Source of the DNA: Craspedostauros australis | Lineage: Eukaryota > Bacillariophyta > Bacillariophyceae > Mastogloiales > Achnanthaceae | Assembly (NCBI GenBank): GCA_026770025.1 | Contig: JAMXDE010000006.1 | Span: 2,424,001 to 2,488,000 of the forward strand | Length of the DNA stretch: 64,000 nucleotides | Reading direction: 5' to 3' | Part shown: positions 28,886 through 36,943 of the stretch, one piece after another | Position numbering within the stretch: the stretch's first letter is position 1 | How the letters are laid out: each line of letters opens with the position of its first letter | Notes under the pieces: generated by a model | Seen by the model: the letters and a program-made list of their open reading frames with translations, nothing else | Databases searched by the model: none | Told to the model about the DNA's origin: nothing | Made by a program: the position numbers and the translations under genes

Positions 28886-31714
28886 CTAGACAGATCGGAC
28901 GTTGCGTAGCTGCGTTTCCAATGGAGACTCGTCGTAATCATCGAGCAATGAGGATCGCCGCTGCCCAGAGGATGACGAGGTACCCAAGATTGAAGTCGGT
29001 GGTGGTGGCACGCCTCCTGGTAATGGTGCGGCCGGCATGCTGACAGCCTTGTTCATCACATTAACATTGGCCTGCGCTGCATTCTGGTTCATTGGGAAAC
29101 CGGCGAACGGTGGTGGGACCATCTGAAGTTTCTTCACGGGCTTTTCCTGCGGCTTCTGCTGCGGTGCGGGCTTTGGTGCTTGCTTCTGGAGGGCTGCTTG
29201 TTGGTGCTGTTTCGCTTGCTGCTTCTGCTGCATTTGCTGTGCTTGTTGCATCGTTGGTTGTTGTTGCGATTGTTGTTCACCTTGCTGACCTGACTGCTCT
29301 TCCTCCCCTTGCTCACCTCCTCGGAAGTATGAAGTCATCCCAGTGCGGAAGTTGTTAATGATTTGAGATGGAGACGACGCCAGTTTCAACAAGGTTGTGC
29401 TGATTCCTGGTTCCAAGCTCGTCGGTAGTGCTATTGGCCCGGAGGTAATATCTTCGTCTTCATTCGCCCCATTGCTTTGACTGGCTTGCTGCTGCTGCTG
29501 CTGCTGTTGACGTGCTGGCTGCGGAGTCTGTAGTGCTGGTTGCTGCGGTTGCGATCTACCCTGATTCTGTTGTTGCTGCTGTTGCGGGTTACCGTTCGGG
29601 TCCTTCCCCAAAGGCCAGAATGAGACCAACCAGTCCGACATTTGCGACGTCAAGCGATTCATCGGGGGAGGATCGGAACCGCCTTGCGCGCCGTTGGCTG
29701 GACCGTTTGATGCATTCGCGGTATCTTGCTGCGGCTGCTGGGCTTGATCCTGTTGGCCATCGTTGCCGGCTTCTCCCGGTTGCCCATCCTGCATTCCTTG
29801 CATGAGCGACTTCATCATGTTGCCAATCTGCGCTTGACGAGGGTTGGCAGCTGCGTTGCTACCAGCATCGGTCAATGGCAACGGCATTGGGTCTATGCCA
29901 CCTGCACGTGCCGCACCCTGTCGTTGATTCATTGCCAACTGGCTGGCACGGCGTTGCGCGTCGAATGCTTGGACTGCTGCTGCGGCTGCCGCCATGGTGT
30001 TCGCCGTGGTGGAGAGCCTTTGGTTGTCCATGAACTTCTGCACTTCCGCAAACGACTGAGGGTTCGTGTTTTGATTTTGCGCCGGCTGTTGTGGTTGTTG
30101 CTCCAGCTCTTGCTTCCTCTCCATCTCTCGCACCACGGCTGCTGCGGCTGCCATGCTGTTGTTCACGCTGATTGGTGCGATGGCACTGGTGCGTTGCAGT
30201 GCGTTGTTGAATGCCTGTTGCGATTTGCGCAACATTTCGTACGCGTTCTGGACTTCTTGCTGCTGGGCAGCTGAGAGGTTTGCCATTTGCATTGGATTCA
30301 TCTGCTGCTGCATCATTGCCATGTTGTTGCTCATCGAGTTCATAAAAGCGTGAGCAGCGGCCGGATTAGCGATGCCATTTACAGCGGTGTTCATGTTTGC
30401 AGGTTTGTTGCTGGCGGCACTTTTCTTGTTGCCGGCATTATTGGTTTGGTTTCCAGGGTTGCCACCAAAACCAGCAAATGCTGCAAAGGGTGGGAATCCA
30501 AAGAGACTGCTCGACGATGACAAGGGCGCTGGCTGCACGGCTCCACCAGCGTTTCCGTTGTTGCTGCTGACATTTGCGTTGCTCTTTTTGGTGGACGAAG
30601 AACCGAAGAAGCTGGAACCATTGAGGAAGCGGAACAGGGAGGATTGTCGCGCTTCCAGTGCCTTTGGTGGAAGAGGGACCAATTCTTCCTCGTCTCCCTG
30701 CTTAGTCGCTGTTGTTCCCCCGTTCATATTGCCACTGACACTGGCATTGGTGCTGGCAATGCTGTTATTTGCTGAATTGCTGTTGTTCGCGTTGAAGGCC
30801 TGCTGCTGCTGGTTGTTGTTGTTGTTGTTGTTGTTGTTTTGGAAGCAATTTGCATTGGCGCCGTTCCCATTGATTCCCACGTCGTTGTTCATCTTGATTC
30901 GCTTCTGCATGGATGCACCGCCATTCATCTGCATGGCCATCCCCATGGCATTCGCCATGTCCATCGGCGTTCCATTGATTTGCATGTTGGCATTGATGCC
31001 TGCGGCCATCCCCCCGTTGATTTGCATGGCGTTGCCCTGTTGGTTCGCGTAAGTATCCGCATTCCAGCCCATGGTCGCCGCGCTGGGCGGTGCCCCACGG
31101 CTCCACCAGGCAGGTTTGACGAAAGCAGCCGCGGCCTCCTTGGCCTTTCGTTTGCGCGCGGCCTTGGTCTTTGTGTTGGGTGGCGGGATCTGCTTGGTGT
31201 CTGCTGGCGGTGGAACTCTGACCGTGATGGTGGCACCCTGCGCGGGTTCTTCCGATGTATTGGCGTCGAACGTGGCGGGTTTCTTCCCCACATCCTGCTG
31301 GAGCTGGATCTTCGTCTTGCTGGCCTTCCCCTGCGCGGCGCCTTGCTTCTTGGGTCCCTTTCCAGCACCCGCATCCTTGACAGCTGGGTCCTTCTCTCGC
31401 AATGCCTGCGACGTTTTGTCCACCGAGCGTTTGTAGGTGATGGTGCGCCATGCGCCCTTGGATACCTTATCTCCCTCTAGGAATCTGCCTGGTGGCTCCT
31501 GCTGCTCGACTGCCTGAACGATGGCCTTGGCGACCAGCAGCTTCGTATGCTTGGGACATGAACGATACAGCGCGCGGTTACTTCTGACCAATCTGCGGAA
31601 CCATTCGTTGCCTGGATGCTGGTTCGTCAAACCTCCTCTTCCACACAGCACATCCTGCAGGTCGTTGTGCACGGACACGGTGACAGAGATGGATGAGCCG
31701 ATAGCCATGATCAT
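28886..31714 (-). CDS. DUF6824 protein with Gln/Asn-rich tail
   Basis: A 942-residue intronless protein. Residues about 18-110 contain the DUF6824 domain: DVLCGRGGLTNQHPGNEWFR, then LVRSNRALYRSC, KAIVQAVEQ, PPGRFLEGD and WRTITYKRSVDKTSQALREK. This domain is found chiefly in stramenopiles, expanded in diatoms, and its function is not established; a DNA-binding role has only been guessed from its basic, compact form. The next block is Lys-rich (KTKAARKRKAKEAAA). The rest is dominated by Gln, Asn, Ala and Met, with pure Asn and Gln runs (poly-Asn encoded near 30812-30838). Such tails are common in transcriptional regulators and prion-like proteins. A second ATG two codons in is possible. Confidence 0.85.
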   Translation of the reverse strand: MIMAIGSSISVTVSVHNDLQDVLCGRGGLTNQHPGNEWFRRLVRSNRALYRSCPKHTKLLVAKAIVQAVEQQEPPGRFLEGDKVSKGAWRTITYKRSVDKTSQALREKDPAVKDAGAGKGPKKQGAAQGKASKTKIQLQQDVGKKPATFDANTSEEPAQGATITVRVPPPADTKQIPPPNTKTKAARKRKAKEAAAAFVKPAWWSRGAPPSAATMGWNADTYANQQGNAMQINGGMAAGINANMQINGTPMDMANAMGMAMQMNGGASMQKRIKMNNDVGINGNGANANCFQNNNNNNNNNQQQQAFNANNSNSANNSIASTNASVSGNMNGGTTATKQGDEEELVPLPPKALEARQSSLFRFLNGSSFFGSSSTKKSNANVSSNNGNAGGAVQPAPLSSSSSLFGFPPFAAFAGFGGNPGNQTNNAGNKKSAASNKPANMNTAVNGIANPAAAHAFMNSMSNNMAMMQQQMNPMQMANLSAAQQQEVQNAYEMLRKSQQAFNNALQRTSAIAPISVNNSMAAAAAVVREMERKQELEQQPQQPAQNQNTNPQSFAEVQKFMDNQRLSTTANTMAAAAAAVQAFDAQRRASQLAMNQRQGAARAGGIDPMPLPLTDAGSNAAANPRQAQIGNMMKSLMQGMQDGQPGEAGNDGQQDQAQQPQQDTANASNGPANGAQGGSDPPPMNRLTSQMSDWLVSFWPLGKDPNGNPQQQQQQNQGRSQPQQPALQTPQPARQQQQQQQQASQSNGANEDEDITSGPIALPTSLEPGISTTLLKLASSPSQIINNFRTGMTSYFRGGEQGEEEQSGQQGEQQSQQQPTMQQAQQMQQKQQAKQHQQAALQKQAPKPAPQQKPQEKPVKKLQMVPPPFAGFPMNQNAAQANVNVMNKAVSMPAAPLPGGVPPPPTSILGTSSSSGQRRSSLLDDYDESPLETQLRNVRSV

Positions 31715-31906
31715 GAGAGGAGTGGGGGAATGGTTGAAGTGATGAGAAGATGAGAGTGGATGAGCAAAGTTGCATCGTCAACAATGCAGCATTGTATAAT
31801 ACAATACATCGCTTGCACGGTACCATAGCTGAGTTGCATTGACTTACATGTGGATGTGGGGTTTGGATGAATTCCCCAGCGGGAGTGCGTCCTGGTAGCT
31901 CTGACA

Positions 31907-33219: not shown

Positions 33220-33967
33220 ATGGCCACTTGCACTTGCGTCCTCCGCAGCGAGGGAACCGCCGGAGTCAGCGGCACCATCCGTCTGTCCCAGGCCTCCGAA
33301 TCGGCACCCACCGTCATCCAGGGTCAGCTGCGGGGATTGACCGCCGGACAGAAGCACGGCATCCAGATCTGCACGTACGGCGACATCACGGGATCCGGCG
33401 TCTCCTGCGGACCTATCTTCAATCCATTCGGTATGTCGATCTCATGCTTGTTTCCTCGTTACTCTGCGGGCGGCGGATGTGATGGTGGTAGTGATAGTGA
33501 TAGTGGTGGTAGACTGCAATTGTTGCCAGCAACCTTTCCAAATCCAAACCAATGTTCAACTCCATTCCATCTCACCCAATTGTCTCCTGCTTTGTTGCAA
33601 CGTCCTCCTTCATCTTTCATCCTCGTTTCCAATACTCCCAATATTCCATTCCACATATGCACGCACATGCACTCTCGCGTATACGCTCGCACAAACAGGC
33701 AAAACACACGGCGCCCCAACCGACGATCCAACCCAGCGAATGGTCGGAGACATCGGCAACGTCGAAGGCGACGAGGCCGGTGCTTGCGCCGTGCAGATCG
33801 AGGACAGCCTGGTCAAGCTCATTGGACCGCATTCCATCATCGGCAGATCGCTGGTCATTTGCGCTGGACAGGACGATGGCGGCAAGGGCGGACAGGAAAA
33901 GTCACTGGAGACAGGCAACGCAGGACCACGAGTGGCATTCGGCGTCATAGGTTTGGCGCAGTCGTAG
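33220..33967 (+). CDS. Cu/Zn superoxide dismutase-like protein lacking the metal ligands (pseudoenzyme)
   Basis: Two exons, 33220-33430 and 33699-33967 (GTATGT donor, CAG acceptor, phase 1), give 159 residues, the usual length of a cytosolic Cu/Zn SOD. The fold is unmistakable: GTAGVSGTIRLSQ, VIQGQLRGLTAG, VGDIGNVEGDEAG, HSIIGRSLVI, TGNAGPRVAFGVIGLAQ. Yet the ligands, in standard numbering, are changed: His46 to Q49, His48 to C51, the bridging His63 to I66, His80 to M85 and His120 to C125. Only His71 (H74) and Asp83 (D88) remain, with the guiding Arg143 (R148). The disulfide cysteines 57 and 146 are G60 and F151. It cannot hold the normal copper site, so dismutase activity is very unlikely. 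The frame is clean, which argues for a retained, repurposed protein. No targeting peptide is seen. Confidence 0.88.
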
Positions 33968-34652: not shown

Positions 34653-36218
34653 TTAGAGCACCTTCGTGACGATACCGGTGCCGACAGTGAGGCCACCCTC
34701 ACGCATGTTGAAACGAAGTCCTGCCTCCAACGCGATTGGTGTGATGAGGTCGACGACGATGGAAGTGTTGTCTCCTGGCATGACCATCTCCGTGTCGCCG
34801 ATGAGATCCAACGCTCCTGTCACATCTGATGTTCGGAAGAAGAACTGCGGTCGGTAGTTGTTCATGAATGGCTTGTGACGTCCACCCTCCTCCTTCGTCA
34901 GGGCGTAGATCTCGGCCTCGAACTTGGTTCCCTGCGTGACGGATCCTGGCTGGCACAGCACCTGTCCACGTCGCACATCCTCACGCTTCAAACCACGCAG
35001 CAGCGCGCCGATGTTGTCTCCAGCCATACCCTTGTCAAGAAGTTTGCGGAACATTTCCACTCCGGTGCAGGTGGTCTTGTTGTCCATCTTCATACCAACG
35101 ATGTCGAGATCGTCTCCGACATTGACCTCTCCCTGCTCGACACGTCCAGTGACGACGGTACCACGTCCGGCGATCGAGAATGTGTCCTCGATCGGCATGA
35201 GGAATGGCTTGTCCAACACACGCTCTGGCTCTGGGATGTTCGCGTCGACGGATGCCATCAGCGACAGGATGGCCTCCTTTCCGATTTCGTCATCACGTCC
35301 CTCGGCGGCGGCCAGGGCACTTCCGCGGATAATCTCGATGTCATCACCTGGGTAGTCGTACTGGTCCAGCAACTCGCGGATCTCCATCTCGACCAACTCC
35401 AACAGCTCCTCATCATCAACCAGGTCACACTTGTTGAGGAAGACGACCAAGTTGGGGATGCCGACCTGCTTGGCGAGCAGGATGTGCTCGCGGGTCTGTG
35501 GCATGGGACCGTCGGTGGCGGCGACGACCAAAATACCTCCGTCCATCTGCGCGGCTCCGGTGATCATATTCTTGACGTAATCGGCGTGACCCGGGCTGCG
35601 AGCATCAGCGAGTGTTGTGTTCAGTTGGGATGCATTGAACAGAGAGATGGGTTGGCACAACAAGAGGGAAGAGACAGCGAAAGCTTGGGTGAGATGGAGA
35701 AATTATCCTGGAGTGGTAGAGCAGCATTGGCAATAGAATGGAACGCTGGTGTCCAATGAGGCAGCACTCATGCCCGCATTTGTAATCCGACTCGCAACAT
35801 GCGATGTAATTGATGATTGCACAATCATGCACAAAAGATACACAAGCACATCAGCACACATGAACTCATGCACTCACCAATCGATGTGACCGTAGTGACG
35901 GGTCGCCGTCTGGTACTCAATGTGGGACGTGTTGATGGTGATCTTGCGGGCCTTCTCCTCTGGAGCACGGTCGATATCTTCGTACGTCATGGCATCGGAC
36001 CATCCCTTCTCACTGAGGACCTTGGTGATGGCCTGCGTCAGCGTGGTCTTTCCGTGATCGACATGACCGATGGTTCCAATGTTGACGTGCGGCTTGCTGC
36101 GGTCGAAGTTGGTGGAGAAGGCCCTTGCGAAGGTCAGCACGGTCTGGCGGCTTGTCGCCTGGCGCTTCAGGGCATTGCCCAGGCTGCTGGCAGTGGTTGC
36201 GGCGAATCGGGACAACAT
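34653..36218 (-). CDS. tufM: elongation factor Tu, mitochondrial
   Basis: Two exons on the minus strand: 36218-35878 and 35595-34653, joined by a 282-nt phase-2 intron with a GTGAGT donor, giving 427 residues. The factor delivers aminoacyl-tRNA to mitochondrial ribosomes using GTP. The G1 loop is [10 protein letters not shown]2 (the T in [13 protein letters not shown]); G3 D-C-P-G-H, whose Cys codon spans the intron; and G4 NKCD. Domains 2 and 3 are complete to the normal C-terminus ([16 protein letters not shown]). The N-terminus [20 protein letters not shown]... ARAFST is Arg/Ser-rich without acids, a mitochondrial presequence. Being nuclear with such a presequence, it is not the plastid tufA. 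Confidence 0.96.
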
Positions 36219-36943
36219 GCTTCAATTCAGTTCACTTCAGTTCAATTCGATGCAGTGCAATATAATTTAATCGGCGCCTTGCAGCAGTGTATGTATGGTA
36301 TGGCACGAGTACGTTTGTGTACTGTGATGGCTTCAGTTGCTGCGATACCTCTCTCTCTGTTGGATGATTGATGGCGACAGATGCGCGCGTCAGGCAGCAC
36401 CATGTTTCACACAAAAAGATGCGGCTGGTGATGTGTCCGTTTCGATCTTTGGTCTCCTTCCTTGTTTTCTCGGGTTTGTCGTTGTCGGGTGACAGACAGA
36501 CCCTTTTCTTCTGAGTCATCCGAATCGAACCCTTTCTCTCTTCGTTTTCTTCCCCCGAGACCATAGCATTCAAACGAAGCTAGATAATGCGATTGCTGTG
36601 AAAACGACCATTCTGTCCACAGCAACCCACGTTTGTGCAGCGCCACGTTCGTCTGAACATGCGTGGATCGGTGAATCCTTGTACTCTCACACCTGCACAA
36701 GCGCACTTGCGATGTATGTCGACATACGGGTACGAGTACAAGCGTCCGGAGAATCCGGAACATGTTGCAATACCACAAGGATTTTCCGTCTTGTGGTTTC
36801 GGCCACTTCTGTTTTCTCTCTGCAATCGCCTCCGTGATGGGGAACGCTTTTCGGCGTTTCCATCTCACTTTTTCGTGTCTGTTTCTCCACCGAAAGCCAA
36901 AATGATGCCTGCAAAATCCATCCGAGACATCCAATGCCAAAGA

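Follow-up and report, generated by a model that had tools for sequence, protein, structure and literature searches.

SOD folds that lack a copper site are already on record and include domain II of CCS, oyster dominin and some CSRPs (PMC13017621). The closest described group for the gene reported here is found in the diatoms. In the portion of their article considered here, Groussman et al. (2015; PMC4460010) describe the majority of diatom sequences as lacking the canonical ligands while His71 and Asp83 are retained, a sentence that may instead refer to the sequences taken together and not to each one singly. The same portion gives 39-70% identity to yeast SOD1 for the diatom sequences, names four diatoms in which His46, 48, 63, 80 and 120 are all kept, reports transcription in 18 of the 18 Bacillariophyceae examined and retains the name Cu-ZnSOD despite the ligand losses (PMC4460010). 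Among the papers on diatom SODs retrieved from the openly licensed PMC literature, none was seen to assign a function to the ligand-poor proteins.

The gene studied here lies on the + strand of a stretch of 64,000 nucleotides of Craspedostauros australis DNA (assembly GCA_026770025.1, contig JAMXDE010000006.1, positions 2,424,001 to 2,488,000), which is referred to as the window. Exon 1 (33220..33430, 211 nt), defined by conceptual splicing and translation and by alignment, encodes residues 1-70 and the first base of codon 71, and carries Q49, C51, G60, C63 and I66 at positions 46, 48, 57, 60 and 63 of human SOD1, whose numbering is used for all comparisons. It is followed by a predicted GT...AG intron of 268 nt (33431..33698) placed by homology across the junction. 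Exon 2 (33699..33967, 269 nt), defined in the same way as exon 1, completes codon 71, runs on to the stop and carries H74 and D88, the kept residues 71 and 83, together with M85, C125 and F151 at positions 80, 120 and 146. In the spliced translation the frame is uninterrupted and yields a protein of 159 aa; G+C amounts to 47% in the intron versus 62% in the coding sequence and to 72.5% at third codon positions.

The sole Pfam match of the protein is Sod_Cu (PF00080) at residues 16-154 (E 4.6e-36), with a score of 124.6 bits against a curated cut-off of 28.9 and all profile positions, 1-133 of 133, covered, which places the protein in PF00080. It shares 83 of 145 residues with yeast SOD1 (57.2%), 72 of 150 with human SOD1 (48%) and 76 of 156 with a SOD from a cyanobacterial MAG. 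A PDB sequence search returned 123 distinct chains at E 0.001 or better; among the matches listed, the best 60 of the 123, the highest single-domain scores belong to yeast SOD1 chains (166 bits), with human SOD1 at 129 bits, and the top row is a tandem human construct because its chain contains two SOD copies. An unbroken yeast SOD1 alignment crosses the exon junction, so that splice, Pfam match and alignment agree with the two-exon, full-length gene of Cu/Zn SOD fold proposed in an earlier note made from the sequence. The protein is a single domain with no leader by eye and has six cysteines, at 4, 6, 51, 63, 100 and 125. Yeast-like stretches such as THGAPTD and KLIGP can also be recognised, and the protein is closer to yeast than to human SOD1.

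Five of the seven metal ligands are replaced (H46Q, H48C, H63I, H80M and H120C), as are both cysteines of the disulfide (C57G and C146F), and the only ligands kept are H71 and D83. The copper ligands 46, 48, 63 and 120 therefore read Q, C, I and C, the zinc ligands 63, 71, 80 and 83 read I, H, M and D (two of four kept) and the pair Cys57-Cys146 reads G and F, none of which is the state of a Cu/Zn SOD enzyme. All seven replacements listed in the earlier note were recovered at these positions by alignment, its list being correct as far as it went while passing over the two retained ligands. Its further statement that two of the cysteines C51, C63 and C125 take the place of copper ligands also holds, as C51 corresponds to position 48 and C125 to position 120, C63 falling on the non-ligand position 60. 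Many of the other changes likewise fall in active-site elements, namely F45I, E49T, G56S, A60C, L126G and the charge swap E133K with K136E. R143, T137 and D124 (R148, T142 and D129 of the protein itself) and H43 are kept, and loop VII is present by alignment. Of the dimer positions, as read from the alignments, G51, D52, T54, I113, G114 and G150 are kept, and F50 and I151 are changed to Y and L. The fold tolerates a cysteine at position 48, since the solved yeast chain 1b4t bears one there.

Two comparison sets were used to ask how far these losses stand out. With 29 rows, seven of the nine metal and disulfide columns are changed versus 10 of the 48 other near-invariant columns (Fisher p 0.0018, two-sided). 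With 72 rows, comprising 70 distinct locus sequences plus yeast and human SOD1, the counts are 7/9 versus 13/52 (p 0.0040, one-sided), at least four of the 13 changed columns (54, 79, 103 and 131) having a consensus that is set by viral rows. This leaves 38/48 and 39/52 of the other near-invariant columns kept. All nine metal and disulfide residues are intact in 70/70 distinct locus sequences, a set gathered with patterns that favour intact sites, and the only one of the 72 rows to depart is the human chain, which carries the engineered change D83S. The comparison rows come almost entirely from viruses and were gathered with patterns of the same motifs, and therefore show the normal state and not its frequency. 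The search based on the canonical SOD of the cyanobacterial MAG (L009) gave 36 relatives among 40 stretches, and that based on a three-row alignment gave 242 relatives among 420 stretches, of which the best 80 of 242 were used; in both cases these are viral SODs with intact sites. The three-row pattern was relaxed at four positions to admit Q, C and I; since both patterns contain the motifs of the nine residues, neither could fairly find losses. Judged from the alignments, the metal sites and the disulfide are lost selectively, beyond chance, with the SOD1 fold kept.

Searches for relatives of the protein itself gave one pattern match and no confirmed relative in viral contigs, no confirmed relative in plasmids, none at E 1e-3 in phages and no family in NCBIfam. 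The genome contigs contained two loci, both from one cyanobacterial MAG (QS_4_48_99). One (L009, 3001-3459) is a canonical SOD that shares roughly half of its residues with yeast and human SOD1; the other (L010, 2929-3339) is a broken SOD fragment on another contig, just upstream of an intact Fe/Mn-SOD-like ORF. No diatom orthologue was found in the viral, plasmid, phage and genome-contig collections searched. The viral contig L050, retrieved with the GPIFNPFG DNA pattern, proved to be a chance match confined to a stretch of 11 residues in a frame without SOD. In four further viral contigs (L030, L035, L036 and L039) a SOD domain with intact metal ligands starts a much longer ORF. These long ORFs also contain a stretch which we take to be ParB-like.

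Set beside the known systems, the protein shares with yeast and human SOD1 a full-length fold by sequence and most dimer positions, and differs from them in seven of the nine metal and disulfide residues. With the SOD1-like domain II of CCS it shares a SOD fold without a working copper site; human CCS, however, keeps three of the four copper histidines, the zinc site and the disulfide (PMC13017621). A CCS would moreover combine its SOD-like domain with an ATX1-like HMA domain in one chain, and Sod_Cu is the only domain on this protein. Position 150 is a near ubiquitous Gly in SODs and an Ala in CCS (PMC6383938), and the protein has Gly there (G155). Oyster dominin and the arthropod and tardigrade CSRPs are likewise SOD-like and without an intact copper site, but dominin is extracellular and the CSRPs consist of several repeats (PMC13017621), unlike the single-domain, apparently leaderless protein described here. 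Cu-only SODs and CSRPs, as defined in the same source by an intact copper site and disulfide together with loss of the zinc site and loop VII (PMC13017621), present another combination of residues. The SOD homologues of leporipoxviruses and capripoxviruses are inactive as well, and that of lumpy skin disease virus also lacks both disulfide cysteines; they differ in keeping some copper ligands and in losing R142/143 (PMC7712962), which is kept as R143 in the diatom protein.

The best agreement is with the ligand-poor diatom 'Cu-ZnSOD' sequences: the pair His71 and Asp83 is the only one left, the canonical histidines are lost and the 57.2% identity to yeast SOD1 falls within the published 39-70% (PMC4460010). 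Because the gene fits these sequence statements, it can be regarded as an addition to a group that is already in the literature, though under a wrong name. The view taken in the earlier note, that no diatom family with this set of changes had been described, has to be given up, as ligand loss sparing His71 and Asp83 has been in print since 2015 (PMC4460010); the portion of that text considered here is silent on the replacing residues, on the disulfide cysteines and on a pseudoenzyme reading. The earlier note also held that orthologues with His at these sites would point to a decayed copy or an assembly error; the literature cuts both ways, with four named diatoms keeping all five histidines and the majority not (PMC4460010). 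Ligand loss being common in diatoms by this account, an assembly error or a decayed copy private to this species is disfavoured.

The remaining SOD complement was surveyed in the whole assembly (74.8 Mb, 90 contigs). Searches with the Sod_Cu profile and with the protein both match just the two exons of this gene, so that no other Sod_Cu gene was detected. Two Fe/Mn-SOD genes are present, whose GGGH and NQD motifs, read by eye, are of the Mn type according to a published rule (PMC4460010). Ni-SOD exceeds the cut-off at one place, where a first exon (L008, 718-1278) links ubiquitin with the beginning of the Ni-SOD domain; taken by itself, the short Ni-SOD piece of this exon reaches 21.7 bits and stays below the cut-off of 25. 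The fusion is in frame, and its Ni-SOD hook, HCQVPCGIF, ends in Phe in place of the Tyr of the published motif. Two Mn SODs and a ubiquitin-NiSOD without an Fe type match the pattern given for pennate diatoms in the part of the article considered (PMC4460010). This SOD set, the ubiquitin-NiSOD fusion and the DUF6824 domain of a neighbouring gene fit a diatom origin of the DNA. The HMA profile gave three matches in two long ORFs that have P-type ATPase motifs and resemble copper P-type ATPases, and no HMA domain joined to a SOD domain was found in the assembly. As the HMA matches all lie outside SOD domains, no CCS was detected, in a search that could overlook a CCS split into short exons or one that has diverged to the extent seen in yeast. 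The plastocyanin family had no match in the assembly either, and a scan for bacterial promoters and terminators, of a kind unsuited to this genome, gave nothing.

Taken together, the gene probably encodes a SOD1-fold dimer of the diatom family of Groussman et al. (PMC4460010) that is not a dismutase. The pseudoenzyme reading of the earlier note is thereby retained as the best one, since the fold is kept by sequence, the metal sites and the disulfide are selectively lost and the gene is intact and single-copy. The protein would have preserved the SOD1 fold and the dimer contacts, while its copper site, half of its four zinc ligands and its structural disulfide are gone. Cu/Zn dismutase activity is presumably lost, because a histidine stands at none of the four copper-ligand positions. 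By established SOD1 chemistry, the reaction cannot run without the copper histidines. Dismutation in C. australis would then be left to the Mn- and Ni-type SODs. With dimer and barrel kept, the product is expected to be a folded protein with a job, most likely a small soluble homodimer whose preserved dimer and barrel surface may serve as a binding platform. The seven key losses and the other SODs of the cell would also be expected of a neutral relic or decaying Cu/Zn SOD copy on its way to loss, but such a fate is unlikely given a frame intact over two exons, a third-position G+C of 72.5% and the preservation of most other near-invariant columns; the same class of loss in the diatom majority and transcription in 18/18 Bacillariophyceae are likewise unlike recent decay (PMC4460010).

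What the former copper pocket of such a non-dismutase does can be envisaged in more than one way. Thiols C51 and C125 stand at ligand positions 48 and 120, with the nearby methionine M85 at position 80, and may form a soft-metal (Cu+) or thiol redox-responsive site; with two ligands turned into Cys and one zinc position into Met, the former copper site could take up Cu(I) or serve as a redox switch. This part of the reading is offered tentatively: a two-metal site is disfavoured by the loss of the bridging residue H63, and H63I together with H46Q would argue against a properly built metal site with the original geometry. The full proposal, a thiol-based dimer made from the SOD1 fold that handles Cu(I) or senses redox state and that in most diatoms is no dismutase, is less likely than not. 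A metal-free scaffold, in which the SOD1 barrel and dimer bind a partner by surface contacts and the pocket cysteines are incidental, has a considerable chance of being right, if somewhat under an even one. The kept dimer positions, the vacating of two ligand positions by H63I and H46Q without a soft-type ligand and the precedent of functional SOD folds lacking an intact copper site, e.g. the SOD1-like domain of CCS and oyster dominin (PMC13017621), would favour it; the change of two of the five replaced ligands to Cys and of one to Met may count against it. That the protein is still a dismutase or another redox enzyme with a different metal set, for instance copper bound by Cys, Cys and Met, is very unlikely. 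The cysteines at two copper-ligand positions and the retained R148, T142 and D129 (SOD1 R143, T137 and D124) could be cited for it, but no copper histidine remains, the bridging H63 is Ile and the charges of the guiding loop are altered (E133K, K136E). Among the matches listed for an engineered H120C SOD in the openly licensed PMC literature, no paper contained that term. Hardly to be expected is a role in which the protein serves a genuine Cu/Zn SOD as decoy or chaperone, comparable to CCS itself or to the inactive, CCS-binding SOD homologues known from Shope fibroma and myxoma virus (PMC7712962). The poxvirus homologues are viral decoys (PMC7712962), and both the decoy and the CCS model are disfavoured because their possible targets, another Sod_Cu gene or a CCS, were not found in this assembly, although a yeast-type CCS, barely recognisable by sequence, could be missed (PMC13017621). 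The Gly at position 150 also agrees with SOD1, CCS having Ala there (PMC6383938).

If the ligand-poor diatom proteins are not dismutases, accounts of metal use that are built on them change. The portion of the Groussman article considered here deduces that pennate diatoms have shifted to Cu-Zn SOD (PMC4460010). Elsewhere, a rise of Cu-Zn SOD protein of centric diatoms under high CO2 is read as possible replacement of an iron SOD (PMC10632500), and SOD3 of P. tricornutum, called CuZn, goes up 2-3 fold late in high light (PMC2766053), the link of both to the ligand-poor group being one of name. Should the non-dismutase reading be true, a protein that oceanographic surveys record as Cu-Zn SOD would be no dismutase in most diatoms, and a conserved non-enzyme would need a new function.

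The gene is flanked in the window by two neighbours on the - strand. At 34653-36221, an EF-Tu gene is present in at least two pieces, and at 28886-31777 lies the gene of a DUF6824 protein that contains long runs of glutamine and of asparagine. DUF6824 is a domain of diatoms.
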